Positions 16,573 to 35,424 of a DNA stretch of 35,424 nucleotides are shown in pieces; positions within the stretch are counted from its first letter, which is position 1; the number at the start of each line of letters is the position of its first letter. The position numbers were made by a program, and so were the translations under genes. The DNA comes from Bacteroidales bacterium (GTDB taxonomy: Bacteria > Bacteroidota > Bacteroidia > Bacteroidales > UBA7960). Under the pieces are notes generated by a model. The model made no database searches. It worked only from the letters and a program-made list of their open reading frames with translations, and was not told the origin of the DNA. The stretch spans positions 64,306 to 99,729 of the forward strand of contig SKVW01000053.1 in the NCBI GenBank assembly GCA_007129255.1, read 5' to 3'.

Positions 16573-16605
16573 GTTGAATATGCTGTTGAAAATAAAACAG
16601 AGTTA

Positions 16606-16613
16606 CAAAAATA
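16606..16613 (-). promoter_or_regulatory. Candidate -7 box (TATTTTTG) of dxs
   Basis: TATTTTTG on the minus strand fits TAnnTTTG and lies 33 nt before the dxs ATG. At N19 spacing the -33 triplet is TTC rather than TTG. Confidence 0.4.
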
Positions 16614-16737
16614 TAAAATTAAACGCTCAGGTGAAATTTAAACGGCAGGCAGAAAAACTTGAATTTCCTGTAAAAAAGTAACCCCTTCGTATAAAAAGGT
16701 TAAATAAAAACCGTAAAGATTAACTTACCCTGAAATA

Positions 16738-17148: not shown

Positions 17149-17170
17149 AATTTTTCTATGTTTAATTTTT

Positions 17171-17422: not shown

Positions 17423-17425
17423 AAT

Positions 17426-17701: not shown

Positions 17702-17713
17702 ATTTGTTGTGTT

Positions 17714-19141: not shown

Positions 19142-19162
19142 TCTTAACAAATGTTTATATTA

Positions 19163-19170
19163 CAAAATTA
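19163..19170 (-). promoter_or_regulatory. Candidate -7 box (TAATTTTG) of hydG
   Basis: TAATTTTG on the minus strand fits TAnnTTTG, 22 nt before the hydG ATG in the 100-nt gap after the MBL-fold gene. No TTG was seen at N19. Confidence 0.4.
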
Positions 19171-19241
19171 CGGAAAGTTTTCAAGGTGAAAGCCTTAAAT
19201 CCTCAAAAAAGTGCAATTCATAATTTAAATGCCTGAAATAC

Positions 19242-20021
19242 TTAAATATCAATTTTCAGGCCGTCATATGCAAGGAAGATGTTCTCAGGCAGGGTTTCCT
19301 GGATTTGACTGTGAACGCCCATAAAATGGCTCAGGTGGGTAATATAGGCCTTCTTCGGTTCAATTTCCCTGATTTCCTGCAAAGCCTCTTCCAATGAAAA
19401 GTGGGAAATGTGTTTTGACTTTCGCAGGGCATTGATCACCAGTACTTCAGATCCGGATATTTTTTTCTTTTCTTTTTCAGGAATATGACTGGCATCGGTA
19501 ATGTATGTAAAGTCGCCAATCCGAAAGCCAAATACAATCATTTTATGATGCAGCACTTCAATAGGCAAAATGGGCAAGCCGTTAATGGAAAATGGCTCGT
19601 TTTTAATGATATTGAATCTCAGCTGCGGGGCGCCAAAAAACCTTTTTTCGTGCAGGATATAGGGAAATTCTTTGTTAATGGAGTCTATTACGGCCTGAGT
19701 GGCATAAATATCTACAGTTTTGTTCAGTACATAATTGAATGCCCTCACATCATCCAGCCCTGCGATATGATCGCGGTGTCCGTGGGTAAAAAGAATAGCC
19801 GATATATCCTCCACCTTTTCCCGGATCATCTGATAGCGAAAATCAGGACCGCAATCAATAATCACTCTGTGGTCATTAACTTCTACCATCACAGAGGTTC
19901 TGAGCCGGTGATCGCGCTTGTCTTTGCTTGAGCAAACTTTACAATCGCATGCAACTACTGGAACCCCGGTGGAAGTACCGGTTCCAAGAAAAGTGACGGT
20001 AATTTTCTGTTTGTCGGACAT
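19242..20021 (-). CDS. Metallo-beta-lactamase-fold hydrolase (PhnP/RNase Z-like)
   Basis: A 259-aa MBL-fold protein. The first strand motif is TFLGTGTSTGVP, and the metal-binding signature is FTHGHRDHIAGLDD (HxHxDH). Later ligands are the Asp in YITDASHIP and the histidine in THLSHFMGVHS. An early cysteine pair, DCKVCSSKDKRDHRLRTS, is like that in PhnP-type phosphodiesterases, which often bind an extra zinc there. A cyclic or nucleotide phosphodiester substrate is plausible. It starts 23 nt after ribF on the same strand and may share its transcript. Confidence 0.88.
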   Translation of the reverse strand: MSDKQKITVTFLGTGTSTGVPVVACDCKVCSSKDKRDHRLRTSVMVEVNDHRVIIDCGPDFRYQMIREKVEDISAILFTHGHRDHIAGLDDVRAFNYVLNKTVDIYATQAVIDSINKEFPYILHEKRFFGAPQLRFNIIKNEPFSINGLPILPIEVLHHKMIVFGFRIGDFTYITDASHIPEKEKKKISGSEVLVINALRKSKHISHFSLEEALQEIREIEPKKAYITHLSHFMGVHSQIQETLPENIFLAYDGLKIDI

Positions 20022-20044
20022 CAGGAAAAGGCCTTTCTCATTTT

Positions 20045-20965
20045 TCAGTATATCAATTCTTCAATCATTTCCCGGGCTTCATTCACCTTTGTTCTGGAGA
20101 CCTCCCCGTTATTTAAAGGGTTGCCGTCTGTGATCTTTTTATAGAAATATAAAGTGCCATGGTTAATTTTTTCATCGAAGGGATCATAAACCAGGGCAGA
20201 TTCAACAAACCGTTTACCATGCTCATTTTCCAGCACAAAACTCATGGATTTGAGCCACTTTCCACCCTGCAATAAATTGGTGGCATAGATACCGGGAGGA
20301 GGAATGAGTTTTTCTTCTTCTGTAATTAAAGACCTTATGGTTTTTAATTCGTTCATTCCCGGTAAGCCTTGCCCGTTAATGAGCCCTGATGAAATAATGT
20401 ATTGGTGGTCGAGATAGGCGTTGGCCCGTTGGATGTTCCCTTCAAGAAGAGCCTTCCGGATTTTTGTGGAGCTAACCGTTTCGTTTTCGATATCTTTTAG
20501 CGGGATTTCTTCCACCCCAAAACCATATTCTTTACTTAGGGCATGCAGGTAAGAATAATCACCCTTGCGGTTGTGCCCAAAATGATGATTGTGACCAATG
20601 ACCACAATCCTGGCACCCAGTTCACCAATTAGGATTTCCGTGACAAAGTCATGGGAGGAGGTTTTACTGAATTCCACTGAAAACGGTATGACAATCAGGT
20701 TATCCAGCCCTGCCTTTGAAAGCAATTCAATTTTTTCTTCCTGGGAGTTGATCAGCTTCAGATCTTTTTGCTCAGGATAAAGGACTTTCCTTGGGTGGGG
20801 ATGAAAGGTTATCAGAACCGATTCTCCGTCCTGATCTCTGGCCAGCTGGTTAAGCCGGTTGATAATGACTTTATGGCCAATGTGCACCCCGTCAAAGGAG
20901 CCGGTAGTGACAACGGCATTTTTTATTTTTCCGGTTGCCTTGCTTGTGCTGTTAAAAACTTTCAT
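20045..20965 (-). CDS. ribF: Bifunctional riboflavin kinase / FMN adenylyltransferase RibF
   Basis: A 306-aa FAD synthase that converts riboflavin to FMN and then FAD. The N-terminal nucleotidyltransferase half has TTGSFDGVHIGHKVII, HPHP, and the SSTKIRKALLEGN motif. The C-terminal riboflavin kinase half has GLPGMNEL, PPPGIYATNLL and the strand VFENEHGKRF-type region. The length is standard. Flavin supply suits its neighbours, since HydB needs FMN, but ribF is a housekeeping gene and the linkage may be incidental. It lies 62 nt after rex, with a TAATTTTG box at 21010-21017 overlapping the gap. Confidence 0.95.
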   Translation of the reverse strand: MKVFNSTSKATGKIKNAVVTTGSFDGVHIGHKVIINRLNQLARDQDGESVLITFHPHPRKVLYPEQKDLKLINSQEEKIELLSKAGLDNLIVIPFSVEFSKTSSHDFVTEILIGELGARIVVIGHNHHFGHNRKGDYSYLHALSKEYGFGVEEIPLKDIENETVSSTKIRKALLEGNIQRANAYLDHQYIISSGLINGQGLPGMNELKTIRSLITEEEKLIPPPGIYATNLLQGGKWLKSMSFVLENEHGKRFVESALVYDPFDEKINHGTLYFYKKITDGNPLNNGEVSRTKVNEAREMIEELIY

Positions 20966-21027
20966 GAATGAATTTTTTTGGTAATTTGCTGCGATAATAG
21001 ACTTAAAAGCAAAATTACAAGGGATTT

Positions 21028-21660
21028 CTATTTTTTTACCAGGAAAGCCAGTTTTTCCAGTGAAGTAACAATGTCATATTCTTCCAGATGTACATTTTCG
21101 GGAACGGTGAGCGGCACCGAAGTATAGTTTAAAATTCCTTTAATTTCAGCATCCAGCAGCATTTTTGCCACATTATGTGTTGCTTCCGGGGCTACGGTAA
21201 GTACCGCTATTTGGATGTTTTCCTTTTGAATGACTTCTTTTAACTGGTTCACGTGGTGACATGGAACACCGGAAATGATGCGGTCGGTTTTTTGAGGGTC
21301 ATTGTCAAAAACGGCGGCAATGGAAAGTTTTTCCCTTTTACCGGTAAAGTAGCTGGTAATGGCGCGTCCGAGATTTCCCATACCGACAACGGCAATTTTC
21401 TCGCCTTCCTCGCTGTCAATGATTTGTCCAATCAGGGCGATAAGGTCTTTGATGACATAGCCTTTGCTCTGGCTTCCGGAATACCCGATCAGCATCAGGT
21501 CTCTTCTCACCTGCACGGGGGTAAGATTCATCATTTTGGCCAGTTCGTGGGAGTAAATGTTTGTTTTGCCCTCCTCAATACTATTATATAAAACTCTTCG
21601 GTATTGACTCAGCCTTTCAACGGTTTTTCCGGGGAGATCCGGGATTTTATTTTTTGCCAT
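21028..21660 (-). CDS. rex: Redox-sensing transcriptional repressor Rex
   Basis: A 210-aa Rex. The N-terminal winged helix contains YRRVLYNSIEEGKTNIYSHELA and LTPVQVRRDLMLIGYSG. The Rossmann domain binds NADH/NAD+ through VVGMGNLGRAI, then FDNDPQKT. Rex senses the NADH/NAD+ ratio and usually represses fermentation and NADH-oxidising hydrogenase genes, so its place in the hydABC gene string makes direct control of that operon likely. The ATG at 21660 gives the canonical N-terminus; a longer frame upstream would run into the preceding kinase gene. The gap to that gene is 25 nt. Confidence 0.95.
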   Translation of the reverse strand: MAKNKIPDLPGKTVERLSQYRRVLYNSIEEGKTNIYSHELAKMMNLTPVQVRRDLMLIGYSGSQSKGYVIKDLIALIGQIIDSEEGEKIAVVGMGNLGRAITSYFTGKREKLSIAAVFDNDPQKTDRIISGVPCHHVNQLKEVIQKENIQIAVLTVAPEATHNVAKMLLDAEIKGILNYTSVPLTVPENVHLEEYDIVTSLEKLAFLVKK

Positions 21661-21685
21661 TTTTTTTGGTACTGGTTTTTTAAAA

Positions 21686-22807
21686 TTACTCTTCTTTAAA
21701 TTTGATGGTAAAGCAGCTGCCCCTGCCGGGCGTGCTTTCAACAGAAATTTCACCTTTATAAAAATCGGTTAGTTTTTTTACGATGGAAAGTCCCAGGCCG
21801 CTGCCACTGATATTTTTGGTTTCTTCACTTTTAATCCTCACAAAATCCTCAAAAAGTTTTTCTTTATCTTCAACTTCCATCCCGATTCCGGTGTCCTCCA
21901 CGCTGATGATAATCTCATCATCCTCTTTGGAAAGGTTAACATCTACCCTTCCTCCCTGTTTGTTATACTTTATTGAGTTGGATATGAGGTTGTTAAAAAT
22001 GATCTCCATTTCCTGCTTGTCGGCTTCCATTTTTATTTTTTCCGAACAATTCAGGTACACATCCACGTCTTTTTGTATGGATAGGGGTTGGAAAGAATCA
22101 ATGCTTTGCCTGGCAACTTCGCAAAGAAGCAAAGGCTCGATATTGCGGGATTTTTTTCCGGATTCAATGCGGGTGAAATCCAGCATGTCAAGGATAAGGT
22201 TTCGCATGCCCTGGATCCTGAACAAAGCCCTGTCAATCATTTCCATGTAATCGTCAAGGTTATCCCCGGCTTTTTTCTCCTGCATCATTTTCAGGTAACC
22301 TTCCACTGCATTAATGGGAGATTTTAATTCATGTGAGAGTACTGAAAGGAATTGAAACCGCACCTGCCGGCCTTCAACATTGAGTTTTTGGGTCATGCGC
22401 TGAAGAAACAACTGCTTGGTAATGGTTTCGACCGATGTTCGCAATTCTTTTGGGGTAAACGGTTTGGGCACAAAATCATAGGCTCCCTGTTTGGTAGCTT
22501 TAACGGCCAGTTCAAGAGATGCATAAGAGGTGATCATGACCACAACAATATCCAGTTGTTTTTTATTGATGTATTCCAGCACATCAATGCCTTGAATTCC
22601 GGGTAGTTTGTTGTCAAGCAATACGATATCGTAGGGTTTCTTTTCAATAAGTTCCAAAGCCTCTTCTCCTGTTGCAGCTTCATCAATGCTAAATTCAAAA
22701 TCTTCATCCATAAAGGGATAACTCACCGAAAAATTCTCCAGGATTCGCGTAACCCCTCCCCTGATCCCCGGTTCATCATCCACTACCAACAGGTTGAGTT
22801 TTTCCAT
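21686..22807 (-). CDS. Receiver-histidine kinase protein (REC-HisKA-HATPase)
   Basis: A 373-aa cytoplasmic two-component protein with inverted hybrid order. The receiver domain (1-125) has D10/D11, phospho-acceptor D65 and K115. The HisKA domain has H159 in SHELKSPINA. The HATPase domain has N-box NLISNSIKYN, G1 DTGIGM and G2 GSGLGL. No membrane segment or DNA-binding domain is present. It starts 2 nt after the stand-alone receiver and continues the hydABC string. It could accept phosphate from the hydrogenase-like kinase and pass it on, or act as a phosphatase for it. The wiring is inferred. Confidence 0.92.
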   Translation of the reverse strand: MEKLNLLVVDDEPGIRGGVTRILENFSVSYPFMDEDFEFSIDEAATGEEALELIEKKPYDIVLLDNKLPGIQGIDVLEYINKKQLDIVVVMITSYASLELAVKATKQGAYDFVPKPFTPKELRTSVETITKQLFLQRMTQKLNVEGRQVRFQFLSVLSHELKSPINAVEGYLKMMQEKKAGDNLDDYMEMIDRALFRIQGMRNLILDMLDFTRIESGKKSRNIEPLLLCEVARQSIDSFQPLSIQKDVDVYLNCSEKIKMEADKQEMEIIFNNLISNSIKYNKQGGRVDVNLSKEDDEIIISVEDTGIGMEVEDKEKLFEDFVRIKSEETKNISGSGLGLSIVKKLTDFYKGEISVESTPGRGSCFTIKFKEE

Positions 22808-22809
22808 GG

Positions 22810-23208
22810 TTAAATTTTTAAAAGTTTATTGATTTCTTTGTGCAATTGATCCATACGGATTCCTTTATCCAGAAAAAGGTCGGCTTTAATCCAGTCCTGT
22901 TCTTCCTGGGTTGTGACGTCAAAAAGCATCCCGGTTTCAGCGGTAACGGCCGAAGCAATGATGATGGGTACCTTGGGGTATTTATCCTTTATTTTGTGGC
23001 AAAGGATAAATCCGGTATCCTGATTTTCCATCATCAGGTCGAGAATGGCCAGATCAGGACGGGTTTTTTCGATAATGGCTTCAGCTTCTTTCTGGGTTTC
23101 TGCCGTAATAACCTCAAAACCCATATCCTGAACAGCTGCCTTCATCTGGAACAAATAATCTATGTCGTCATCAACAATCAGTATGGTCTTTTTCTCTTTT
23201 TTAAGCAT
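22810..23208 (-). CDS. Stand-alone response regulator receiver protein
   Basis: A 132-aa single REC domain: acidic pair D13/D14, phospho-acceptor D57 in LAILDLMMEN, S86 and K115. Residues 94-112 (MLFDVTTQEEQDWIKADLF) form a longer than usual beta4-alpha4-beta5 region. There is no output domain. It starts 5 nt downstream of the hydrogenase-like kinase and ends 2 nt before the receiver-kinase, so it is probably the direct phospho-acceptor of the former, acting by protein contact or as a relay shuttle. Confidence 0.92.
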   Translation of the reverse strand: MLKKEKKTILIVDDDIDYLFQMKAAVQDMGFEVITAETQKEAEAIIEKTRPDLAILDLMMENQDTGFILCHKIKDKYPKVPIIIASAVTAETGMLFDVTTQEEQDWIKADLFLDKGIRMDQLHKEINKLLKI

Positions 23209-23213
23209 GGCGT

Positions 23214-25271
23214 TTATATTTTATCTTCCTGATTATTTTTTTCAATGGATTCGGGTTTGCTATCCGATTTTCTTGGGAGGGTCAGAATAAATTTTGTTCC
23301 GGTTGGGCCGGCATTGGGATCATTATTGGATTCTACTTTAATACTTCCCCGGTGCATTTTTACTATACCATAGATGATCGGGAGGCCGAGACCGGTGCCT
23401 TTCCCGTTCTCCTTGGTGGTAAAAAACGGCTCAAACATCCTGTCCAGATTTTCTTTGGAAATGCCTGTGCCGGTATCCTCAATTTCAAATTTTATTTCAT
23501 TGCCTGCAGCATGGTCTTCTGCGATAATGGTCAGTTCACCGCCCCCGGGCATGGCATCTATGGCATTCTTAAACAGGTTGGAAAAAACCTGCACCATTTG
23601 ATCCTTGTCGCATTCAATTACAGGATTGGGTGTTTTTATCCTGGTATCCAGCTTTACATTTGCCGGCATGACAAAAGCTTTAAGCCCGTCTTTAATCAGT
23701 CGCTTGATGGGCACTTCACTAATGGTTACCTTACTTTTCCTGGCAAAGTTCAGCAATCCGCCCACGATTTTTTTACATCGGTTGGCCTGCTCCACAATCA
23801 GTTTAAGATCCTTGTAAATAGGAGAACTGTTATCTATTTCATCCAGAAGGATGTGACTGTACATGATAACCACACCCAGAGGGTTGTTTACCTCGTGGGC
23901 GATGCCGGCGGCCAGCTGCCCCATGGAAGCCAGTTTCTCGCTTTGCTTAAGGGCTGCCTGGGTTGAAGCCAGTTTTTGGTTTGAAATATCCAGTTCGTCA
24001 ATGTATTTATGCAACTTGTCAATGGTATATGGCAGGCACATTTCGGTTTCGGCAATACCCTGCAGGATGGCAGCTGCATGCTCATAACAGGTATCATAAC
24101 CACAGGCACCACAGTTCAACTCATCTTCAGGGACCTTTTTTCCAAGGTCTGCCAGCACCTTTCTGATTTCTTCGCTATCGGGTGGATCGGGAAAACGCTG
24201 ATCATCAACCTGGAACTGGCGTGAAAGAGAAAGCTCCAGGAAAGTATCAAGATTTTTTTGCCATTGCTTCAGATCCAGACGGTCGAACTTGCGTTTGGCA
24301 AAATTCGAGATATTTTTTCTTTTGTGGAAAAACTGGTGTTTGTGGCTCATCCCAGGTCCGTTGATGCATCCGTTGCAACAAAGCAGGTCAAACATTTTCG
24401 CCTCCAGGTGGCCTTCCTCAAATTCCCGCAATACTTCAATGATATCATGGCGGCCTTCTGCCACCACGATCTCCCCTTTAATGAAGTCTTCTTCCAGGTC
24501 AACGGTTTGAAGCATACCGCCACTGATGGGAAAGACGGATCCTTTTCCGGCAATGGGGGGATCGAACTCCGAAGGACTTACATTGAATTCATTGATCCCT
24601 TTTTCAGAAAACATACGACGAAGTTCAATAAAAGAGATCACCACGTCAATAAAACCCTTGAATTGTTCGTTGGCCGCTTCTCCCTTTTTGGCAATGCAGG
24701 GACCGATAAAAACAATGCGAAGATCCTCGCCATGCATCTTTTTCAGGACTTTTGCAATAGCTACCATGGGAGAAACCACCGGGATAAGAGAGTCCACAAT
24801 ATTGGGATGGTGTTTCTCTACATAGCTAACAATGGAAGGACAACTTGTGGAAATGAAAGGGCGGTCGGAACCGGCCTGTAAAAGCTCTTTGTATTTATGG
24901 GCCACCAGTTCGGCGCCAAAAGCCACCTCGTTTACATAATCAAAACCCAGGGCTTTGATCATGCCAACAAAGTTGTGATAATCGGAAATGTCGGTAAATT
25001 CTCCGGCAATACTTGGGGCCACAATGGCCGCCACTTTTTCTCCCGATTGCAAATGTTTTTTCACCTGATCAATAGAAAAGGAAAACATTTTGGCGTCCCG
25101 GCTGCATACGCGCACGCAATTGCCGCAGGCAATACACCGGTTGCCAATGATCTCTGCCTGCCCGTTAATGATCTTAATGGCTTTGGCAGGGCATTCCCTA
25201 ACGCAGGTATAGCAAACCTTGCATCGATCCTTTACGGTGTATATGAACTGATTTTGATCTTTTTTTTGCAT
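23214..25271 (-). CDS. Sensory [FeFe]-hydrogenase-like protein fused to histidine kinase
   Basis: A 685-aa cytoplasmic fusion. Two ferredoxin clusters are complete (C17/C20/C23/C27 and C46/C49/C52/C56). An [FeFe]-hydrogenase large-subunit domain follows (70-340), with C144 (TSCPS), C192 (GPC), C298 and C302 (LCCNGC) at the four ligand positions of the [4Fe-4S] half of the H-cluster. The proton-shuttle Cys that normally precedes the first ligand is S143. An FeS domain CGACGYDTC with C412 is next, then HisKA with H459 (AHEVNNP) and HATPase (GTGLGL). This matches the histidine-kinase-linked sensory [FeFe] hydrogenases (HydDB group C1). It lies 25 nt after hydA. It probably reports H2 or ferredoxin state to the adjacent receivers. 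Confidence 0.9.
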
Positions 25272-25296
25272 GCTTTGTTTTTTGAGAAAAAACCTG

Positions 25297-27024
25297 CTAC
25301 TTCATCACTTCTCTTTTACGGAAATGCGTATGGAACCAGTCTTTTATTTTTTCTGATCCTGGAGAAGCATCTTTATTTTTGTACAGATCCAATACAAATG
25401 GATTTTCACCGGCTGACTTAATGGGAGAAATTTTTACCATTTCCTGGCAAAACTTTTTACGGTTTTTAGGCTTTTCAGGATTACGGCTGATGGGTTGTCC
25501 ACCGCCCCCGGCACAACCTCCAGGGCAGCCCATCACTTCAAGGTATTGGATATCGGTTCGGTTTTCTTCCAGGAGTTGTTGAAGGTAAGTATCGGCTTCT
25601 TCAATGCCACTGGTCCAGGCAAACCCAAATTCTTCATTTCCGGCCTTAAGCTTGGTTTCCTTTTTACCGGCAAGGTTTTTTGAAACCGAAAACTTAAATC
25701 CATCCTGGTTGCCATTGTTTTTCATTTTATACAACTCCAGGGCAATGGCCTCTGCTTTTCCTCCGGAATATCCCATCTTCCATGCAGAAGCGGATGATCT
25801 TTCAAAAGGGGTATCCAATTGCCCCGCCTTCAGACTTCTCAAATCGATTCCGAAGGTTCTCAGCAACCTGAAAAGTTCCCTTACGGTTAAAACGGCATCC
25901 ACTTCCGAAATGCCCTGGTGGGTCATTTCTTCCCTGGAAGCTTCAAATTTTTTGCCAACACAAGGCATTACCGCCACGCTGAAAACCTGGTCGGGATTTA
26001 ACTTTTGTGAATTGGTATAATGAGTTTTAAGCAAGTTACCAAAAATCTGTTGCGGAGATTTGGAACGAGCTAAAAAGGGGAGCCATTCGGTGCGAAATTC
26101 TTCAAGATATTGCACCCATGCCGGACAGCATGAAGAAATCATGGGCATGGAGGGATTTGTTGCCATGTGCTCATTTAGCAGGGCCGTTTCCTCAAGGATA
26201 TTGATGTCGCAGGCAAAACCAAGGTTAAATACCTTGTTGACCCCGCATTTTTTCAGGGCGGTATTGATCATTCCGGTAACATCCTGTTGGCTTTTGAGCC
26301 CGACCTGCTCTGCAACGGAGGCAACTGTGGAGGGAGAAAGAAAAAACAAGACTTCCTTGTTATCGCTTTCCAGTTCAGCCTGAATTTTCTCAAGGTGAGA
26401 AATATCAAGCAAAGCCCCGGTGGGACAAACCATGATACATTGTCCGCAGTTGATGCAGCTGGAAACGTTCAACCCTTTGTGAAAAGCACTGTTTACTTTG
26501 GTTTGGTTTGCCCTGGAAATAAAATCAATGGCAGTAACTTTCTGCACTTCTTCACACATTCTCACACAGCGGCTGCACAATACACATTTGCCGGGATCGC
26601 GAAAAACGCTGGTGCTAGAGTGGTCGGGGTAGTCTGCATTTTTTTCACCAAAAAATTTTCTCTCCTTTACATTCATTTCTTCGGCAAGCCATTGCAATTC
26701 GCAATTTCCATTTCGCTGGCAGTAAAGGCAGTCGTCGGGGTGGTTGGAAAGCAATAATTCCACCAGGGCTTTCCTTGCTTTGATAACCCTTGGAGAATTG
26801 GTTTTTACTTTCATGTTTTTTTCCACAGGGTAGGAACAGGAAGTGATCAGATCCCGCTTTCCTTCCACTTCCACCACACAAAGCCTGCAGGCCCCGGTAG
26901 GAGAAAACCGGTTCATATGACACAGCGTAGGCACCTTAAAGCCATTGCGCCTAAGGGCCACCAGTAAGGTTTCTCCTTCATGAACACTGACCGGGTTATT
27001 ATTTACTTCAATTTTAAAATCCAT
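25297..27024 (-). CDS. hydA: [FeFe] hydrogenase catalytic subunit HydA
   Basis: A 575-aa catalytic subunit of an NADH-linked, presumably electron-bifurcating trimeric hydrogenase. In order: a [2Fe-2S] domain (C35, C46, C49, C63), a His-ligated [4Fe-4S] (H95, C99, C102, C108), two ferredoxin clusters (C147/150/153/157 and C190/193/196/200), and the H-domain. H-cluster motifs are complete: SSCCPAW (C299, C300), MPC (C355) and EVMGCPGGC (C500, C504). The C-terminus extends about 70 residues and ends without a further [2Fe-2S] domain. Two residues of the clostridial CpI proton path (E282 and S319) appear as Leu and Ala. It lies 19 nt after hydB. Confidence 0.95.
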   Translation of the reverse strand: MDFKIEVNNNPVSVHEGETLLVALRRNGFKVPTLCHMNRFSPTGACRLCVVEVEGKRDLITSCSYPVEKNMKVKTNSPRVIKARKALVELLLSNHPDDCLYCQRNGNCELQWLAEEMNVKERKFFGEKNADYPDHSSTSVFRDPGKCVLCSRCVRMCEEVQKVTAIDFISRANQTKVNSAFHKGLNVSSCINCGQCIMVCPTGALLDISHLEKIQAELESDNKEVLFFLSPSTVASVAEQVGLKSQQDVTGMINTALKKCGVNKVFNLGFACDINILEETALLNEHMATNPSMPMISSCCPAWVQYLEEFRTEWLPFLARSKSPQQIFGNLLKTHYTNSQKLNPDQVFSVAVMPCVGKKFEASREEMTHQGISEVDAVLTVRELFRLLRTFGIDLRSLKAGQLDTPFERSSASAWKMGYSGGKAEAIALELYKMKNNGNQDGFKFSVSKNLAGKKETKLKAGNEEFGFAWTSGIEEADTYLQQLLEENRTDIQYLEVMGCPGGCAGGGGQPISRNPEKPKNRKKFCQEMVKISPIKSAGENPFVLDLYKNKDASPGSEKIKDWFHTHFRKREVMK

Positions 27025-27043
27025 ATAAATACTATTGATGATC

Positions 27044-28993
27044 TTATTTAATAATCACCGCATTGAACTTACAAACCTCGTAACAGGTTCCGCAACCAAT
27101 ACATTTTTCTTCCACAATAAAATGAGGGTAGCGCGGAGAGCCGATAATGGCATCTACCGGGCATTTTTTAAAGCAGGCTGCACAACCGGTGCATTGCTCC
27201 ACATCTATCACGAAAATGCGCAAATCCCTGCAAACATTGGCCGGGCATTTTCTTTCAAAAATATGGGCATCAAATTCTTTTTTAAAATTTTTCAGGGTAT
27301 TCAGGATCGCATTGGTTGAAGACTTACCAAGGGAGCATAATGAGGTGTCCTTAATTACTGAAGAAAGCCCTTTGAGTTGCATAACTCCCTTAAATCTTTC
27401 CAGAGGCTGGTGAGATTTTTTTCCAACAGGGCGACGGGTTGCTCCCTGCATAACTTCCAGCATTCTTGCAGTACCCTCACGGCATGGAATGCATTTTCCG
27501 CAACTTTCTTTCTGGAAAAAGGCGGTAAAAAATTTTGCAAGGTCAACCATGCAGGTGCTGTCATCTACAACCACACATGCACCGCTACCAAGGGCAGAAC
27601 CGATTTTTCGCAGGGCCTCAAAATCAACTTGCACATCCAGGGTTTCCTCCACAATATAGCTTCCGCTGTTGATGCCCAGGACAATGGCTTTAAAGTTTTT
27701 CCCATTGCTCATTCCCCCTCCGATCTTATCAATGATCTCCCTGAATGTGATCCCCATTGGAACCTCAATGGTTCCGTAATTCTTTACCTTCCCCGAAAGG
27801 GTAAAAAGCTTGGTTCCCTTACTGCTCTCATTTCCGGTTTTCCGGAACCACTCTGCCCCGTTTTTTATGATCAGGGGAACATTGTAAAGAGTTTCCACAT
27901 TGTTTACAATGGTGGGTTTGTTCCACAATCCTTTCACCGCCGGGTATGGGGGCTTGGAGGTGGGCATGGCCCTTTTGCCTTCTATGCTGTTGATCAGGGC
28001 GGTTTCTTCGCCGCAGACAAAAGCCCTCGCACCTTCTTTGACAATGATATCGATATTTACCCCGGAGTCAAAAATGTTGTGCCCGATCAGGCCGTATTCT
28101 TTGGCGTTTACGATGGCTTTTTTTAAGCGCTCGATAGCCAGCTTAAATTCTTTCCTGATAAAGATATAAGCTTTGGATGCACCTACAGCGTAAGCAGCCA
28201 AAAGGGCAGCTTCCACCAGCCCATGGGGATTGCTTTCGATGATGGCCCGGTTCATGTAGCTGCCGGGATCGCTTTCAACAGCATTGCATACGAAATATTT
28301 TTGCTCGCTGATGGCGTTCAGGGTGGCAGCCCACTTTTTCCCGGTAGAAAAACCACCCCCTCCGCGACCGGCCAGGCCACTTTTTTCAATTTCCCCACAA
28401 ACCTGTGCTGGGGTTAAACGGGCAATGGCACTTGAAAATGCCTGGTATCCGCCCCTGGCAATGTACTGATCAACAGCTACCGGGTCAATAATGCCACAAT
28501 TTTTCAGTAAAGTCTTTTGCTGGCCGGAAAAAAAGGGGTGCTCCTCAATAAATTTGACACCTTCCCAGGGTTGCTGAATATCACTTTGGTATTGTCCGAT
28601 GATATTTAATTCCGGGAGGTGGTTATTCATTACCTCATCGAGCAGATGTTCAACCTGGTCTTCTGTTATGTTTGAAAAGGATAAGCGGGTCTTCCCGGGA
28701 AGCTGGATATCCACTATGGGTTCTGCCGAACAAAGCCCGACGCATCCCCCTTCGGTAAGCTGAACTTTAAGCTGGTGTTCGTTCAGGTAGTTTTTAATGG
28801 CCTCATAGGTTTTAGATGCACCCGCAGCCCTTCCACATGTGGCCATTCCAACATAAATAACAGGCTCATGAACCCTTTCCCTGCCGATATATGAAAGTTC
28901 CTTTTTAAGTTCGTGCGAAGGCTCATTAACAGGATCGGACAGCACCTGCTCTTTAAGTAGTTTTTTTATGTCTTCGCTGGTTTTAGCTTTCAT
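27044..28993 (-). CDS. hydB: NADH-binding hydrogenase subunit HydB (NuoF-like)
   Basis: A 649-aa flavoprotein subunit where NADH meets the iron-sulfur chain. The N-terminal thioredoxin-like domain (about 40-125) has C53, C84 and C88; the partner of C53 is replaced by Ala in CGRAAGA, a variant seen in many NuoF-like proteins. The NuoF core has GLAGRGGGGFSTGKKW (FMN/NADH), and the [4Fe-4S] ligands are C498, C501, C504 and C543. Two C-terminal ferredoxin clusters follow (C601/604/607/611 and C631/634/637/641). The ATG at 28993 overlaps the hydC stop by 11 nt, implying translational coupling. The set is the usual one for HydABC. Confidence 0.95.
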   Translation of the reverse strand: MKAKTSEDIKKLLKEQVLSDPVNEPSHELKKELSYIGRERVHEPVIYVGMATCGRAAGASKTYEAIKNYLNEHQLKVQLTEGGCVGLCSAEPIVDIQLPGKTRLSFSNITEDQVEHLLDEVMNNHLPELNIIGQYQSDIQQPWEGVKFIEEHPFFSGQQKTLLKNCGIIDPVAVDQYIARGGYQAFSSAIARLTPAQVCGEIEKSGLAGRGGGGFSTGKKWAATLNAISEQKYFVCNAVESDPGSYMNRAIIESNPHGLVEAALLAAYAVGASKAYIFIRKEFKLAIERLKKAIVNAKEYGLIGHNIFDSGVNIDIIVKEGARAFVCGEETALINSIEGKRAMPTSKPPYPAVKGLWNKPTIVNNVETLYNVPLIIKNGAEWFRKTGNESSKGTKLFTLSGKVKNYGTIEVPMGITFREIIDKIGGGMSNGKNFKAIVLGINSGSYIVEETLDVQVDFEALRKIGSALGSGACVVVDDSTCMVDLAKFFTAFFQKESCGKCIPCREGTARMLEVMQGATRRPVGKKSHQPLERFKGVMQLKGLSSVIKDTSLCSLGKSSTNAILNTLKNFKKEFDAHIFERKCPANVCRDLRIFVIDVEQCTGCAACFKKCPVDAIIGSPRYPHFIVEEKCIGCGTCYEVCKFNAVIIK

Positions 28994-29462
28994 AAGTATT
29001 TTGCTCTTTTTCCCGGAAATCTGCAAGGATGTCCTTTATTTTTTCCAGGTTCAGATGAGTAAAATATTCTTCATTGATTTCTAGCAGGGGCGCCAATCCA
29101 CAGGCGCCGATACAGGAAACCACTTCCAGGCTGAACAATCCTTCTTTGTCGGTTTCACCTGGTTTGATGCGCAATTGCCTTTCCAGCTCCTGCAGGATGG
29201 TGGATGTACCCGCAACATGGCAGGCGGTTCCGTGGCATACCCTGATATGATAACGGCCAACCGGGCCAAAACGGAAGTTATCATAAAAGGTTGCTACCCC
29301 ATAAATCTTGTTAATGCTTATATCCAGGTATTCTCCCACCCCGGTAATGATTTCTTTGGATAAAAATCCAAAATCATCCTGGATTTGCTGTAATAAGGGA
29401 ATCAAATCTTCCCGCTGGCGGTTGGGGAATTTTTGGAAGATTTCTTCTAATTCAGGTTTCAT
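28983..29462 (-). CDS. hydC: Hydrogenase subunit HydC (NuoE-like [2Fe-2S] protein)
   Basis: A 159-aa NuoE homologue. The N-terminal helical bundle (QREDLIPLLQQIQDDFGFLSKE) is followed by a thioredoxin-like fold holding one [2Fe-2S] cluster through C76, C81 (CHGTAC), C117 and C121 (CIGAC). In HydABC hydrogenases it sits next to the flavin of HydB and takes part in electron bifurcation. It is the first gene of the minus-strand hydrogenase operon, which then runs through hydB, hydA and the sensor kinase. The 300-nt upstream region is shared with the divergent ferredoxin-sensor-phosphatase genes. Confidence 0.95.
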   Translation of the reverse strand: MKPELEEIFQKFPNRQREDLIPLLQQIQDDFGFLSKEIITGVGEYLDISINKIYGVATFYDNFRFGPVGRYHIRVCHGTACHVAGTSTILQELERQLRIKPGETDKEGLFSLEVVSCIGACGLAPLLEINEEYFTHLNLEKIKDILADFREKEQNTYES

Positions 29463-29535
29463 GGATGGAAGTTGATATTTTTTTCACAATGATAAGGCCA
29501 ATAATGTTTTTTAAGGAAAATTTCAGAGAAAAAAC

Positions 29536-29544
29536 GTTGTTAAC
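29536..29544. promoter_or_regulatory. GTTGTTAAC element, copy 1 (possible redox-regulator half-site)
   Basis: GTTGTTAAC here is repeated exactly at 29689-29697, so one copy lies on each side of the divergent promoters. It contains TTGTTAA, the half-site of Rex operators reported in several anaerobes (TTGTTAA, N4, TTAACAA). The second half is not present, so assignment to Rex is tentative. Confidence 0.3.
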
Positions 29545-29573
29545 GGCCTGTATAATTGTAGTTTTGTTTTCCA

Positions 29574-29581
29574 CAAAAATA
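29574..29581 (-). promoter_or_regulatory. Candidate -7 box (TATTTTTG) of the hydCBA operon
   Basis: TATTTTTG on the minus strand fits TAnnTTTG and lies 111 nt before the hydC ATG. The leader would contain GTTGTTAAC copy 1, where a bound repressor could block transcription. No consensus -33 TTG is visible. Confidence 0.4.
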
Positions 29582-29688
29582 ATCAAAAATTTACGAATTA
29601 GCTAAGTAATTCCCATTAAAACAGAGGCTAAAACTCTTAATGTTATTTAGATTAATTCTTAAAAACGATTCTGTCTGCAAGATGTTAA

Positions 29689-29697
29689 GTTGTTAAC
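29689..29697. promoter_or_regulatory. GTTGTTAAC element, copy 2
   Basis: Exact second copy of GTTGTTAAC, preceded by GTTAA (GTTAAGTTGTTAAC). It lies 23 nt upstream of the plus-strand TATTTTTG box, in the -33 region, a good position for a repressor of the ferredoxin-sensor-phosphatase genes. Confidence 0.3.
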
Positions 29698-29720
29698 TAT
29701 TTTTTTCGGAAAGGATTCAG

Positions 29721-29728
29721 TATTTTTG
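29721..29728 (+). promoter_or_regulatory. Candidate -7 box (TATTTTTG) of the ferredoxin-sensor-phosphatase unit
   Basis: TATTTTTG fits TAnnTTTG and is the same octamer as the divergent hydC box. It ends 40 nt before the ATG at 29769. The -33 position holds T-rich sequence without TTG. Confidence 0.4.
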
Positions 29729-29768
29729 TTTCCATAACGAAATAACTCACAGGAAAAAACCTTTGGTC

Positions 29769-30032
29769 ATGAGTAGCCTAACCACTGAAATTATTATTTG
29801 CATGGGCAGTAGTTGTTTTTCTAGAGGCAATAAAAAAACCCTTCAGATTATTCAGGAGTATTTAAAAGAGAAAGGCCTGGAACATAAAGTTTTATTCAGG
29901 GGCTCCCATTGTTTTGGTGAGTGCGAGCATGGCCCCATTCTTAAAATTGGAGAAAAGATTTACCGAAAGGTTGATACAAATTCCGTTCAGGACATTCTGG
30001 ACCAGTTATTGGTTGTATTGAGTTCCCAATGA
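29769..30032 (+). CDS. Thioredoxin-like [2Fe-2S] ferredoxin (NuoE C-domain type)
   Basis: An 87-aa free-standing thioredoxin-like ferredoxin with all four cluster cysteines, C11 and C16 (CMGSSC) plus C48 and C52 (CFGEC). It corresponds to the C-terminal half of HydC without the helical bundle. The ATG at 29769 is preferred to a TTG six bases upstream. It is the first gene of the plus-strand unit and is followed 68 nt later by the hydrogenase-like sensor, so it is probably that protein's electron-transfer partner. That pairing is inferred from order only. Confidence 0.88.
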   Translation: MSSLTTEIIICMGSSCFSRGNKKTLQIIQEYLKEKGLEHKVLFRGSHCFGECEHGPILKIGEKIYRKVDTNSVQDILDQLLVVLSSQ

Positions 30033-30100
30033 AGTTTTGGTTTTAATGCTTGCTTTCTAATTGCTAAATACCAGATTAATAATTAACCCATCCAGGCAAA

Positions 30101-31954
30101 ATGGAAGTCATAGAAATAGATCATTCCCGTTGTACCCAGACCTATGCCTGTATAAGGGCATGCCCGGTACATGCAATCGTTGCCCGCGACAGTGACGGAA
30201 TGCCGGAGGTAAACCACCAACGATGCATTGGTTGTGGCAGCTGCCTATCGGTTTGTAGTGCGGATGCAGTTTCCTATGTCAGTTCGGTAAAAGAAACCAT
30301 CAAACTGCTTGAATCCGGAGAGCAGGTTGCCGCCATAGTGGATCCCGCCATTAGCGGGGAATTTCCTGACATTACCGATTACCGGAAGTTTGTAGAGATG
30401 ATCCGGACCATTGGCTTTGACTTTGTCAGTGAAGTATCTTTTGGGGTGGACCTGGTTGCCAGAAAATACCATGACCTGATCGGGAACTTTAAGGGAAAGT
30501 ATTATTTGTTAGCCAATTGCCCCACTTTGGTAAGTTACGTTGAAAAGTTTTACCCTGAATTGACCGATAATCTTGCCCCCATTGTTACCCCCATGACTGC
30601 CACCGCCAAGGTAGTCAGAAAAGCATACGGCAAAGGGCTTAAAGTGGTTTTTATAGGACCGTGTTTATCCACAAAACATGAAGCCAAATTATTTGATGAT
30701 GACGGGAAAGTGGATGCAGTGCTTACCTTCCAGGAGTTGCGCCAAATGTTCAGGCATTACAACATCAAGGAAAGCAAAGTGGAATATTCGGATTTTGACC
30801 CTCCAATCGGCAACCTTGGTTCACTTTATCCACTAAGCAGCGGTATTTTGTATGCTGCCGGCATTGATCAGGATTTGCTCAAAGGGATGGTGATCACTAC
30901 CGAGGGCAAAAACAATATGCTGGAAGCAGTGGAAGAGTTTAATGAAAGCACTGAATTTATCCGAAAGCATTTCAATATTTTTTATAATGAAGGCTGCCTG
31001 ATGGGGCCGGGTAATACCGATAAATCTAAAAAATTCCTCCGCAGAACCCTGGTTGTGGATTATGCCAATAAAAGGCTGAAAGATTTTGAGAAAGAGAAAT
31101 GGGACGCCAATATGAAAGCATTTCTTTCCCTTGATTTTTCAAGGACTTTTAAGAAGGATGATCAGCGCCTGCCATACCCTGGAGACGACCGTGTTGAAGA
31201 AATCCTGAAAAGCCTTGGCAAAAGCCCGGATGAAAAAGCTTCCTGTAACGCCTGTGGATATAGAAGTTGTCGTGAATTTGCTGCTTCCATCAGCCAGGGA
31301 TTGACCAAACCGGAGATGTGCCTTAATTACTCCCTGAAAAGCAAACAGGATTATATTAAAACCCTTAAAAACAAGAATGAAAAACTAAAAAAGCAAGTGG
31401 ATGCCCTTAAGGAAACGGAAGGGACTCTTGCCAATGAAAACCAGAAAATAAAACTGGCCCTGGAAACCACTTCTGCCCTGCTTCAAAATCTTCCTTCGGC
31501 AGCGGTAATCGTTAATGAAAAATTAAAAGTAATAGAATCCAATGGCAGTTTTGTGAAAGTACTGGGAGAAGATGCAGAGATGGTCAATGAGGTGATTCCC
31601 GGGCTGAAAGGGGCCGATTTGAAAACCCTGCTGCCTTATAACATTTACAACCTGTTTACTTATGTGCTGGAAAATGATGAAAACATAACAGGTAAGGATG
31701 TGCAATATGGAGAAGGCCTGCTGAATGTCAGTGTTTATTCGCTTAAGCCCGGGAAAATTGTCGGGGCGGTATTCCGGGATATGTATGTTGCAGAAGTGCG
31801 GCAGGAAGAGATCATCAACCGGGTAAGCGAAGTAATTGATGAAAACCTGAAAATGGTTCAGAATATTGCCTTTTTGCTTGGAGAGGGCGCCAGCAATACC
31901 GAAAAAATGCTCAACTCCATTATAGAAACTTACAGCAAGATCAAAAAGCCCTGA
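30101..31954 (+). CDS. Sensory [FeFe]-hydrogenase-like protein with PAS domain, phosphatase-linked
   Basis: A 617-aa homologue of the kinase-fused sensor with a different output. The first ferredoxin motif has C11, T14, C17 and C21, so one ligand is lost; the second is complete (C42/45/48/52). The hydrogenase-like domain keeps C140 (ANCPT), C188 (GPC) and C299 (NEGC), but the ligand four residues before C299 is Y295. The FeS domain is CNACGYRSC plus C407. A coiled coil (about 412-450) leads to a PAS domain (about 455-570) and a C-terminal helix. It resembles phosphatase-linked sensory hydrogenases (HydDB group C3) and precedes a SpoIIE-type phosphatase by 8 nt. H2 catalysis is unlikely with these losses. 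Confidence 0.88.
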   Translation: MEVIEIDHSRCTQTYACIRACPVHAIVARDSDGMPEVNHQRCIGCGSCLSVCSADAVSYVSSVKETIKLLESGEQVAAIVDPAISGEFPDITDYRKFVEMIRTIGFDFVSEVSFGVDLVARKYHDLIGNFKGKYYLLANCPTLVSYVEKFYPELTDNLAPIVTPMTATAKVVRKAYGKGLKVVFIGPCLSTKHEAKLFDDDGKVDAVLTFQELRQMFRHYNIKESKVEYSDFDPPIGNLGSLYPLSSGILYAAGIDQDLLKGMVITTEGKNNMLEAVEEFNESTEFIRKHFNIFYNEGCLMGPGNTDKSKKFLRRTLVVDYANKRLKDFEKEKWDANMKAFLSLDFSRTFKKDDQRLPYPGDDRVEEILKSLGKSPDEKASCNACGYRSCREFAASISQGLTKPEMCLNYSLKSKQDYIKTLKNKNEKLKKQVDALKETEGTLANENQKIKLALETTSALLQNLPSAAVIVNEKLKVIESNGSFVKVLGEDAEMVNEVIPGLKGADLKTLLPYNIYNLFTYVLENDENITGKDVQYGEGLLNVSVYSLKPGKIVGAVFRDMYVAEVRQEEIINRVSEVIDENLKMVQNIAFLLGEGASNTEKMLNSIIETYSKIKKP

Positions 31955-31962
31955 TATTTCCC

Positions 31963-33147
31963 ATGAATGAGCTGTTTTACATAGAAGTCGGTTCCCAGCA
32001 AAAAAGCCATAGCGGAGAAAGAATTTGTGGGGATGTCTTTGTTTCCCAAAAGGTAAAAGAAGAGGGCCGAACTGTTGGGGTACTTTCTGACGGGATGGGT
32101 CATGGAGTAAAGGCAAACCTGCTGGCCTCTTTAACAGCGACCATGGCCCTGAACTTTACCAAAGAGCACAAAGACGCCCACAAAATTGCAGAAATAATTA
32201 TGAATACACTGCCCGTCTGCAGTGAAAGAAAAATCAGTTATTCCACTTTTACCATAATCGATATTGAGCAATCGGGGCAAACTACCATTATTAATTATGA
32301 CAATCCGGATAGTATTGTACTTCGGGGTGAAGATTTCTTTGAACCCGAATGGCAGGTTATCACGCTTGAAAACGGAGACAATGAAGGAAAGGAAATAAAA
32401 GCCTGTACTTTTAAAGCCCGGAAAGAAGACCGCATTTTATTGCTTTCCGACGGGATAACCCAGTCCGGCCTGGGAAAAGGAAAGTTTCTGCTTGGTTGGG
32501 GCCTGGAAAATGTTAGATCCCTTGTAAAAAAGAGTGTGGAGGACAATCCGGGGATTTCTGCTGATCGGCTGGCCGCTACCATCGTTAATAAAGCCCATTC
32601 CAATGATGGCTACCAGGCCAAAGATGACATCAGCACTGTGGTCTTTTATTTCAGAGAACCCCGCCGGTTGTTGCTTTGTTCGGGTCCGCCTTTTGAAAAG
32701 CAAAAGGATAAAGAACTGGCCCAGGTGGTAAAGGATTTCTCAGGGAAGAAAATTCTTTGTGGAGGTACTACAGCCGATATTGTATCAAGGGAGCTGGATA
32801 TTCCCATTGAAGATTTCCTGGAATTTGACGACCCGGATCTACCCCCTGTTTCTCATATGGAGGGAATTGATCTGGTAACTGAAGGCATTTTAACCCTGAG
32901 TAAAGTGTCAGGAATTCTGGAAAAGCATAGTGACCGAACCGATCTTGGAAAAGGCCCTGCCGATCGTATTGTTAAAATGATACTCGACAGCGATGAAATC
33001 AGTATCTGGGTTGGAACAGCCATTAATGTTGCCCACCAGGACCCTAACCTGCCCGTAGAATTGGAAATTAGGCGAACTGTCATGAAAAAGATCGCCCGAA
33101 TTTTGGAGGAAAAGTTCCTGAAAGAAGTCCGTTTGCAGTTTATTTAA
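31963..33147 (+). CDS. SpoIIE/PP2C-type serine phosphatase with uncharacterised C-terminal domain
   Basis: A 394-aa cytoplasmic protein. The PPM phosphatase domain (1-232) has the metal-binding acids in GERICGD (D24), LSDGMGHG (D43), LLLSDGITQSG (D163) and KDDIST (D221/D222). After it come about 155 residues with no recognised motif beyond SGKKILCGGTTADIVSREL (259-277). SpoIIE/RsbU-type enzymes dephosphorylate anti-anti-sigma (STAS) proteins to release sigma factors. No STAS, RsbW-like kinase or sigma factor is in the window, so the substrate is unknown. It is coupled to the sensor gene 8 nt upstream, which probably regulates its activity. Confidence 0.9.
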   Translation: MNELFYIEVGSQQKSHSGERICGDVFVSQKVKEEGRTVGVLSDGMGHGVKANLLASLTATMALNFTKEHKDAHKIAEIIMNTLPVCSERKISYSTFTIIDIEQSGQTTIINYDNPDSIVLRGEDFFEPEWQVITLENGDNEGKEIKACTFKARKEDRILLLSDGITQSGLGKGKFLLGWGLENVRSLVKKSVEDNPGISADRLAATIVNKAHSNDGYQAKDDISTVVFYFREPRRLLLCSGPPFEKQKDKELAQVVKDFSGKKILCGGTTADIVSRELDIPIEDFLEFDDPDLPPVSHMEGIDLVTEGILTLSKVSGILEKHSDRTDLGKGPADRIVKMILDSDEISIWVGTAINVAHQDPNLPVELEIRRTVMKKIARILEEKFLKEVRLQFI

Positions 33148-33535: not shown

Positions 33536-35424
33536 GTGAAAAAACTTTTACTCTTTGTAATAAGTTGCTTAATTTTATACTGTTCCTTTTCCGAAACCCG
33601 CCCTGGGTTTCTCTCTGCTGAATATAAGGATCAGTCCCTGAATAAAAAGCAATCCCTCTTTTCAGATTCCGGAATTTTTACTGAGAAGAATAAGGAAGCT
33701 TATTTTCCTTTTTCCGGTACCTTGCCTGGTGAGCGTATTGCTTTTAAAGCAGGACTCTTTTCACCAATAAAAAATGCTACTGCATTTTCTCCGGAAGCAC
33801 TGATGCTTCAAATAAAAGGTATTCCATTGGTCGCCGTATTTGATTTATTTGTAATCATGGTGCTGGTATTGGTGGTATTACTTGTGTTGCTGGGTTTTTT
33901 CATTATCAGGCAAAGCCTTTATGGAGGGAAAAAGCAGGGCAGCGAGCTTCGTTTTGAAGAAATGATGGATGCCTCCCCCACGGGGATGATCATTTTCCAG
34001 GATTACAATTTAAAATATGCCAACCAGGCCCTTGTAAAACTTACCGGTTTCAGCCGCGAAGAGTTGCTTTCGATGGAAATATGGGAACTCATTCACCCCC
34101 ACAGCCTGAAGGAACTCAACACGGAAAACTGGTTTTTGAAGCGAAATGGTAAAGGGATGCGCCTGGAGTTTCAGTTAAAAACAAAATCCAACCGGGAAGT
34201 ATGGGTAGATTTTGCTGCCCAGTTAATTGATTATCAAGGCAAATCTGCATATCTTGCCACTGCCCTGGATATCACCGAAAAAAAGAAGTTTGAACAGCAA
34301 CTCATTGAAGCCGAAGAAAGGTATTCCTTGATTGTTTTGGCAACCAATGATGGGATTTCCGACCACAACCTTGAAAGGGATGAGATCTACCTCTCCCCCC
34401 AATGGAAGGAAATGCTGGGATTCAAAGATTCAGAGGTGCCCAACCGGCTCGATGCCTGGCTTGAACTGATCCATCCCGAAGACCAGGAAGTGATCCGGAA
34501 CCTATTGGAAAAACTTCGCAAAGGAGAAGTTCCCAATTATGATACCGATCATCGCCTGAGGTGTAAAGACGGGAAGTACAAATGGATCCATTTGCGCCTG
34601 ACCGTTATTTTTGATGCCGATTCCAGGCCGGTCAGGGTACTGGGAACCCATACCGATATTACCGAAAGGAAATACGCGGAGGAAATGCTTCGTGAGAGTG
34701 AGTACCGTTACAAAAGTCTTTTTTCAAAAAATTCAGCGGTGATGTTGATTTTGAATCCCGACAGCGGAAAAATCCAGGATGTCAACCAGGCTGCCTGCAA
34801 TTATTACGGATATGCACCGGAAGAACTTAAAGGATTAAATTACAAGGACATCAATATTCTTACCCGGGAAGAAATGATCAGAGAAGAGCAACTGGCAAAA
34901 CAGGAAGGCAGAAGCTTTCATTTGTTAAGGCACCGGTTGAAGAACGGAGAGATCAGGGATGTGGAAGTTTATAACAGCCACATTGAAATAAAGGGGAAAA
35001 TGCTGGTTCACACTATTATTTACGATGTTACCCATCGAAAAAAGATGGAGAGTGAACTTAAGGTGGCAAAAGAAAAAGCTGAAGAGGCAACCAGGGCAAA
35101 ATCCACATTTATCTCCAGCGTTAGTCATGAAATCCGCACTCCGCTCAATGCCATCATCGGGCTTACCGATCTTTTGATGCAGGAAACAGAACTGAGTCCC
35201 TACCTTGAAGAAAACCTCAAATCCATTAAATTTTCATCCGATCATTTGCTGGATATTCTTAATGATGTGCTTGATTTTTCTAAGTTGGAGGCCGGTCACC
35301 TTAAGCTGGACAAAAACGAATTTAACCTTGAAGACCTGGTAAAAGGTTCTGTAAAAGCTTTAGAATATAAAGCCCGAGAAAAACAAATTGACTTGAATTA
35401 TAAAATCCATCCAGACATTCCCCC
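33536..35424 (+). CDS. Multi-PAS sensor histidine kinase (3' end beyond window)
   Basis: From a GTG at 33536 the frame stays open for at least 629 residues to the window edge. An N-terminal hydrophobic segment (KKLLLFVISCLILYCS) is a signal peptide or anchor, followed by about 75 extracytoplasmic residues. A strong transmembrane helix lies at about 97-124. Three PAS domains follow (about 140-255, 260-385 and 390-510), the first two ending in DITEKK/DITERK-type linkers, then HisKA with H531 (SVSHEIRTPLNAIIGL) and the start of the HATPase region. The HisKA type is common in hybrid kinases, so a receiver may follow. It has its own promoter; a tie to the hydrogenase sensors is unproven. Confidence 0.88.
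   Translation, partial: MKKLLLFVISCLILYCSFSETRPGFLSAEYKDQSLNKKQSLFSDSGIFTEKNKEAYFPFSGTLPGERIAFKAGLFSPIKNATAFSPEALMLQIKGIPLVAVFDLFVIMVLVLVVLLVLLGFFIIRQSLYGGKKQGSELRFEEMMDASPTGMIIFQDYNLKYANQALVKLTGFSREELLSMEIWELIHPHSLKELNTENWFLKRNGKGMRLEFQLKTKSNREVWVDFAAQLIDYQGKSAYLATALDITEKKKFEQQLIEAEERYSLIVLATNDGISDHNLERDEIYLSPQWKEMLGFKDSEVPNRLDAWLELIHPEDQEVIRNLLEKLRKGEVPNYDTDHRLRCKDGKYKWIHLRLTVIFDADSRPVRVLGTHTDITERKYAEEMLRESEYRYKSLFSKNSAVMLILNPDSGKIQDVNQAACNYYGYAPEELKGLNYKDINILTREEMIREEQLAKQEGRSFHLLRHRLKNGEIRDVEVYNSHIEIKGKMLVHTIIYDVTHRKKMESELKVAKEKAEEATRAKSTFISSVSHEIRTPLNAIIGLTDLLMQETELSPYLEENLKSIKFSSDHLLDILNDVLDFSKLEAGHLKLDKNEFNLEDLVKGSVKALEYKAREKQIDLNYKIHPDIP

Follow-up and report, generated by a model that had tools for sequence, protein, structure and literature searches.

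Sensory [FeFe]-hydrogenases are still termed putative, and our literature search found no demonstrated output pathway for them. The enzymes TmHydS and TamHydS carry two N-terminal [4Fe-4S] motifs, an H-domain and a C-terminal Cx2Cx4Cx16C motif, with a PAS domain in TmHydS; they keep the H-cluster ligands, have no equivalents of C299, M353 and M497, and act as slow hydrogenases (PMC10055695, PMC8163306). In the hydS/hfsABC systems of Ruminococcus albus 7, Monoglobus and Thermoanaerobacterium (the last in PMC11837493, PMC5707799), genes for a ferredoxin, a hydrogenase-PAS protein and a SpoIIE phosphatase follow one another. There, hfsB encodes the PAS hydrogenase, hfsC a serine phosphatase-like protein and hfsD a HydA2-like hydrogenase (PMC11837493), and deletion of hfsB changes ethanol yield and hydrogenase activity (PMC5707799). 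In Bacteroidota, two bfuT genes of group C3 flank bfuABC in Perlabentimonas gracilis, Tenuifilum thalassicum and Williamwhitmania taraxaci; by the published description, one sensory hydrogenase lies downstream of hydA and another upstream of hydC, of PAS and histidine-kinase types (PMC11406978). The two-sensor layout itself is already published in that description, which terms the meaning of the two copies unclear and whose passages on bfuT do not discuss the phosphatase, the thioredoxin-like ferredoxin, the receivers, Rex boxes or whether the PAS type has lost H-cluster residues. Here we analysed a locus of this layout in 35,424 nt of a Bacteroidales bacterium genome (the window; assembly GCA_007129255.1, contig SKVW01000053.1, positions 64,306-99,729), in which a hydCBA operon is accompanied by a kinase-linked (HydSK) and a phosphatase-linked (HydSP) hydrogenase-like protein. 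To judge from the sequences, what is new is that the phosphatase-linked protein has repeatedly lost H-cluster residues, next to a kinase-linked sister that is intact.

Open reading frame (ORF) and domain scans upheld, with small corrections, the layout called by an earlier reading of this DNA (the original prediction): a hydCBA string with a hydrogenase-kinase fusion and rex and, across 300 nt, a divergent ferredoxin, hydrogenase-like protein and SpoIIE phosphatase (Table 1). One of its 'two receiver proteins' is a lone receiver; the second is a kinase, combining a receiver with HisKA and HATPase_c (RRHK), and no DNA-binding domain was found in it by the domain scan. The 'ferredoxin' is a [2Fe-2S] protein, more exactly a thioredoxin-like one (TLF) that matches the C-terminal half of HydC/NuoE, with four cysteines kept in 86 aligned sequences. 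As for the 'PAS protein', the Pfam PAS match in the window HydSP is below threshold (E=0.025), while PAS_8 is present in 50 of the 57 members of its alignment and an AlphaFold2 model (m71d51a8ef9e4, mean predicted local distance difference test (pLDDT) 86.3) contains a long helix (residues 408-462), a five-stranded PAS-like stretch (467-560) and a C-terminal helix. Foldseek showed that this model resembles [FeFe]-hydrogenases of the PDB. The architecture of HydSP accordingly comprises ferredoxin-type, hydrogenase-fold and iron-sulfur (FeS) domains, a coiled helix, PAS and a C-terminal helix.

Cysteines in loops L1, L2 and L3, together with a lysine after the L2 cysteine (Lys358 in Clostridium pasteurianum CpI), are common to catalytic and sensory [FeFe]-hydrogenases. 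According to PMC10055695, sensory enzymes, TmHydS among them, conserve the ligands and the residues bonding the [2Fe] subcluster. HydSK has all of these residues (L1 C144; L2 C192 with K195; L3 C298, C299 and C302), and every HydSK examined retains the L1 cysteine, GPCxAKK and (C)CxGC. It runs from two [4Fe-4S] motifs through the hydrogenase and FeS domains to HisKA, with phospho-acceptor H459, and HATPase_c. Like other group C sensory hydrogenases, it has the H-cluster cysteines and the Lys358 equivalent, replacements at the positions of C299, M353 and M497, and the C-terminal Cx2Cx4Cx16C motif (CGACGYDTC...C) ahead of its HisKA/HATPase output. Unlike TmHydS and TamHydS, it has a fused kinase where PAS would be. 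Its model (m58b1f1e462fa, pLDDT 79.5) shows the FeS domain connected to HisKA by a long helix, although confidence in this linker is low.

HydSP differs. In the window protein, cysteines of L1 (C140), L2 (C188) and L3 (C299) are present within the motifs ANCP, GPCLSTK and YNEGC, but T191 occupies the position equivalent to Lys358, the first L3 cysteine is replaced (Y295 N296) and T14 stands in for the second cysteine of the first [4Fe-4S] (ferredoxin) motif. Measured against group C sensory hydrogenases, HydSP shows the hydrogenase fold, the C-terminal FeS motif and the PAS domain and lacks the full set of H-cluster cysteines and the Lys358 equivalent. The same holds well beyond the window: the lysine is absent from 86 of 87 HydSP sequences and the first L3 cysteine from 41 of 87, the window protein included, while 13 of the 87 additionally lack the L2 cysteine and the last L3 cysteine. 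Mapped onto the tree, loss of the first L3 cysteine requires at least three changes, and probably five. The second ferredoxin motif and the four-cysteine C-terminal FeS motif are nearly invariant. HydS proteins used for comparison (R. albus, Monoglobus, Acetoanaerobium and hfs-like Bacteroidales) retain the cysteines and also the lysine, except for one with arginine. Where HydSP is most degenerate (14 loci), the partner SpoIIE keeps its four putative metal-binding aspartates and TLF its four cysteines, so the phosphatase branch is maintained. We also considered that motif loss might be confined to loci bearing HydSK, as a specialization after pairing, and rejected this, as many of the most degenerate HydSP proteins are in loci without HydSK. 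Phyla beyond Bacteroidota were sampled through plasmid records only, and a HydSP homologue sought in the 'Desulfobacteraceae' metagenome-assembled genome (MAG) of locus L144 was not found.

A phylogenetic tree of the hydrogenase part placed HydSP in a single clade (support 100/100) and united HydSP with HydSK in a joint clade (97/100); R. albus-like and hfs-like HydS fell outside it (99/92). On this tree, HydSK and HydSP are close sister lineages, closer to each other than to hfs-type HydS, so the difference between kinase and phosphatase here reflects a swap of output module among closely related proteins. The descriptive labels of HydDB, 'histidine kinase-linked' for C1 and 'phosphatase-linked' for C3 (PMC5037454), fit the two outputs, but the sequence relationship is not split along them. 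The original prediction had assigned the sensors to C1 and C3; we rejected two distant groups on the basis of the tree and of a published survey which places PAS-bearing and kinase-bearing types alike in C3 (PMC11406978).

Dozens of Bacteroidales contigs share this gene order, in three sets of modules: HydCBA-HydSK-receiver-RRHK alone, HydCBA-rex with TLF-HydSP-SpoIIE and without the kinase, and both. Among 149 genomes of the same order as the source, HydSK was found in 48 and HydSP-type SpoIIE in 44; both halves were present in 27, only the kinase half in 21, only the phosphatase half in 17 and neither in 84. The halves are associated (odds ratio 6.4, Fisher P = 2e-6, uncorrected for shared ancestry), and in all 19 same-contig pairs they are divergent, with a spacing of 7.5-8.1 kb. 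At least 4 further genomes (G040, G061, G116 and G124) carry divergent sensors on one contig, HydSK being partial at the contig end in G061; G040, G124 and G061 are counted among the single-half genomes, so contig breaks slightly blur these counts. This synteny and co-occurrence check had been set beforehand, and its outcome is mixed: the halves are associated yet separable, and neither is obligate for the other. In the kinase-only loci L152-L159, a second lone receiver of ~170 aa lies upstream of hydC, where dual loci hold TLF-HydSP-SpoIIE. Two HydABC loci (L181 and L182) have a receiver and rex without HydSK, and L182 also RRHK, as if the kinase sensor had been lost first.

Both halves face a promoter region that carries candidate Rex sites (Table 1). 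Searching the window alone for Rex boxes gave 11 matches against 11.4 expected, which is not significant; we dropped this approach as uninformative and used a cross-species footprint instead. Across 59 divergent promoters, the best match to the Rex consensus had on average 2.15 mismatches, compared with 3.99 for permuted palindromes, none of which (0/120) did as well. A Rex-like site with ≤2 mismatches occurs in 41 of the 59. In eight kinase-only loci we found neither a Rex-like box with ≤2 mismatches nor rex beside the operon. For hfsABCD of T. saccharolyticum, too, a Rex site of this form has been predicted (PMC5886521). With rex in the operon and a predicted Rex box in the promoter, the locus probably belongs to a Rex regulon.

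Table 1 Features of the hydrogenase locus, in window coordinates
Feature	Position	Strand	Basis
hydG, H-cluster maturase	17714-19150	-	TIGR03955 509 bits; same-strand string, after ribF and MBL hydrolase
rex, NAD(H)-responsive repressor	21028-21753	-	NF003995 206 bits, above cut-off
RRHK, receiver + HisKA (H159) + HATPase_c	21686-22807	-	Domain scan
Stand-alone receiver, phospho-acceptor D57	22810-23208	-	PF00072; D57 kept in 47 aligned relatives
HydSK, 685 aa, hydrogenase-histidine kinase fusion	23214-25271	-	Domain scans, motifs, model
hydA, catalytic [FeFe]-hydrogenase	25297-27024	-	PF02906 2e-65; L1 SSCCPAW, L2 MPCVGKK, L3 EVMGCPGGC complete
hydB, NuoF-like FMN/NADH subunit, 2x[4Fe-4S] at C-terminus	27044-29026	-	PF01512, PF10589, Fer4
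hydC, NuoE-like [2Fe-2S] subunit of HydABC	28983-29462	-	PF01257 5e-49; TIGR01958 above cut-off
Divergent promoter region, exactly 300 nt	29463-29762		ORF map
Candidate Rex-like box TTGATATTTTTTTCACAA	29472-29489		~10 nt upstream of hydC; cross-species footprint
Second candidate Rex-like box ATGTTAAGTTGTTAACTA	29682-29699		Divergent promoter
TLF, thioredoxin-like [2Fe-2S] ferredoxin	29763-30032	+	PF01257 6e-10; C13, C18, C50, C54
HydSP, 617 aa, hydrogenase-like PAS protein	30101-31954	+	Domain scans, motifs, model, Foldseek
SpoIIE-family Ser/Thr phosphatase	31963-33147	+	PF07228 9e-17; putative metal Asp D24, D43, D163, D222

The interpretation that we modestly favour pairs a kinase that senses H2 with an FeS/PAS redox switch acting on a phosphatase, and places both under Rex. 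The group A3 HydABC operon would carry two regulatory modules, derived from sensory hydrogenases, whose sensing capacities have diverged. The genes and their order, the domains, the residue losses, the tree, the co-occurrence and the conserved Rex-like box are observed; the cofactors, signals, direction of signalling and targets in this scheme are those we infer. Because its H-cluster site is kept, HydSK most likely binds H2 there, and the resulting redox or conformational change would pass through the C-terminal FeS domain and coiled helix to its own HisKA/HATPase, with phosphate going to the lone receiver, the receiver domain of RRHK or both. Having lost H-cluster residues, HydSP in this lineage is most likely not an H2 sensor as such and may instead read electron pressure, through FeS clusters possibly fed by TLF or HydABC, or through a PAS ligand, switching the SpoIIE Ser/Thr phosphatase via its PAS and coiled-coil end. 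Rex, encoded by the last gene of the hyd operon, would repress the shared divergent promoter at low NADH/NAD+.

Several observations weigh against this interpretation. A cluster of some kind may survive in HydSP, since three of the four [4Fe-4S]H cysteines are retained in the window protein and four in roughly half of its relatives. Compared with group A, HydSK has an L3 loop shortened by one residue, and its cysteine register is ambiguous (CCxGC). The loci behind the Rex result are related and constitute a footprint rather than independent trials. Finally, the locus gives no pointer to the receiver of HydSK or the target of SpoIIE: it lacks a gene for a DNA-binding output of the kinases, and neither a SpoIIE substrate nor a partner kinase was seen in it. 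Elsewhere, contig C86 of genome G000 encodes a stand-alone RsbW-like kinase, the best and sole such match above the Pfam cut-off, which is a lead without proof. It lies in a second hydrogenase cluster (13853-26158; L007/L008), which holds two pairs of hydB and hydA, another rex gene and a gene for a HydS-like protein (459 aa) whose branch in the tree is very long.

The original prediction had joined two 'hydrogenase-like sensors' beside HydABC into a two-branch circuit in which one redox or H2 cue, read in our wording of this alternative by an H-cluster in each sensor, drives kinase and phosphatase in parallel. Both proteins do stand beside HydABC, and the recurrent divergent layout, the association of the halves and the conserved Rex-like box agree with two linked branches. 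The hydrogenase fold, N-terminal FeS motifs and C-terminal FeS domain kept in both sensors, the four candidate cysteines in about half of HydSP relatives and the fixed divergent geometry would also suit a shared cue. The sensors are not equivalent, however, since complete H-cluster residues are found in HydSK only. With the Lys358 equivalent gone from all but one HydSP, the first L3 cysteine gone from nearly half, one clade that has lost nearly all H-cluster ligands yet retains the cassette, and each half frequently found alone, we consider a shared H2 cue unlikely.

We give still less weight to the idea that HydSP is a structural adaptor rather than a small-molecule sensor, its degenerate domain docking on HydABC, HydSK or TLF so that SpoIIE is controlled by protein contact. 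The fold, coiled helices and SpoIIE partner are kept despite ligand loss, as an adaptor would predict, but the near-invariant second ferredoxin motif and four-cysteine C-terminal FeS motif suggest an electron-carrying role. That the halves are independent modules, juxtaposed by insertion or by a shared need for Rex control and linked by the promoter alone, is compatible with their separability and with hfs-like copies beside HydA2 elsewhere, but is improbable given the geometry fixed in 19/19 pairs, the positive association and a kinship between HydSP and HydSK closer than that of either to hfs-type HydS.

An H2 sensor-kinase beside a redox-switched phosphatase would allow a further, tentative proposal, namely a paired comparator. 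An H-cluster kinase might report H2 while its H-cluster-free sister informs a Ser/Thr phosphatase of electron pressure, letting the cell weigh H2 against its own redox state in setting HydABC; HydSP would then be a former hydrogenase that signals without an H-cluster, such losses having occurred several times within Bacteroidales. A locus with one intact and one degenerate sensor, and with single-ligand losses along the tree, offers a direct route to the role of the H-cluster in signalling, and the same natural variation lets one ask if H2 is required by the phosphatase branch in the first place. For metagenome surveys the losses are a caution that not every group C protein should be called an H2 sensor.

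The phosphatase half matches the described hydS/hfsABC cassettes in having TLF, hydrogenase-PAS and SpoIIE genes in order on one strand, a phosphatase with the same C-terminal extension, and rex or a predicted Rex site nearby. Those cassettes lie upstream of a HydA2/HfsD hydrogenase, whereas that of the window is divergent from hydABC, and no HydA2/HfsD gene was found following it at 33147 in the window. In R. albus 7, plasmid pRUMAL01 carries rex, adhE, phosphotransferase, TLF, TLF, HydS, SpoIIE and HydA2 in that order; in Monoglobus, TLF-HydS-SpoIIE is followed by a 4Fe-4S dicluster protein. Other Bacteroidales copies do have TLF-HydS-SpoIIE-HydA2 (L165, L166, L168 and L169 among others), and at L164 one HydA2 gene stands beside two tandem HydS-SpoIIE pairs. 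The HydS proteins of R. albus and Monoglobus have complete H-cluster motif sets, in contrast to the degenerate HydSP; relative to TmHydS and TamHydS, HydSP is without one ligand and the lysine.

The complete-motif hydA with NuoF-like hydB and NuoE-like hydC in one operon identifies the catalytic enzyme as a trimeric HydABC of group A3 type. The true start of rex is probably an internal ATG near 21660. Beyond rex, the minus-strand string runs on through ribF, an MBL hydrolase, hydG, two small CPF_0552/TM1266-like proteins, which adjoin hydG in tandem at 17171-17701, and an Rrf2-family regulator. HydF and HydE are encoded elsewhere in the same genome, which should therefore be able to build the H-cluster. 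The nearest relatives of the source genome are Bacteroidales MAGs, with SpoIIE 95% identical in the closest. The four SpoIIE aspartates are conserved across 109 aligned sequences. The C-terminal 162 aa of this protein (32659-33147) have no Pfam match and are conserved with the HydS-partner phosphatase of R. albus, the motifs CGGTT and NxAHQxPDLP marking an unnamed domain. About 390 nt beyond SpoIIE, on the same strand, lies a multi-PAS histidine kinase (33536-35422, cut by the window end), relatives of which also come after SpoIIE in loci L069, L077, L082 and L084.

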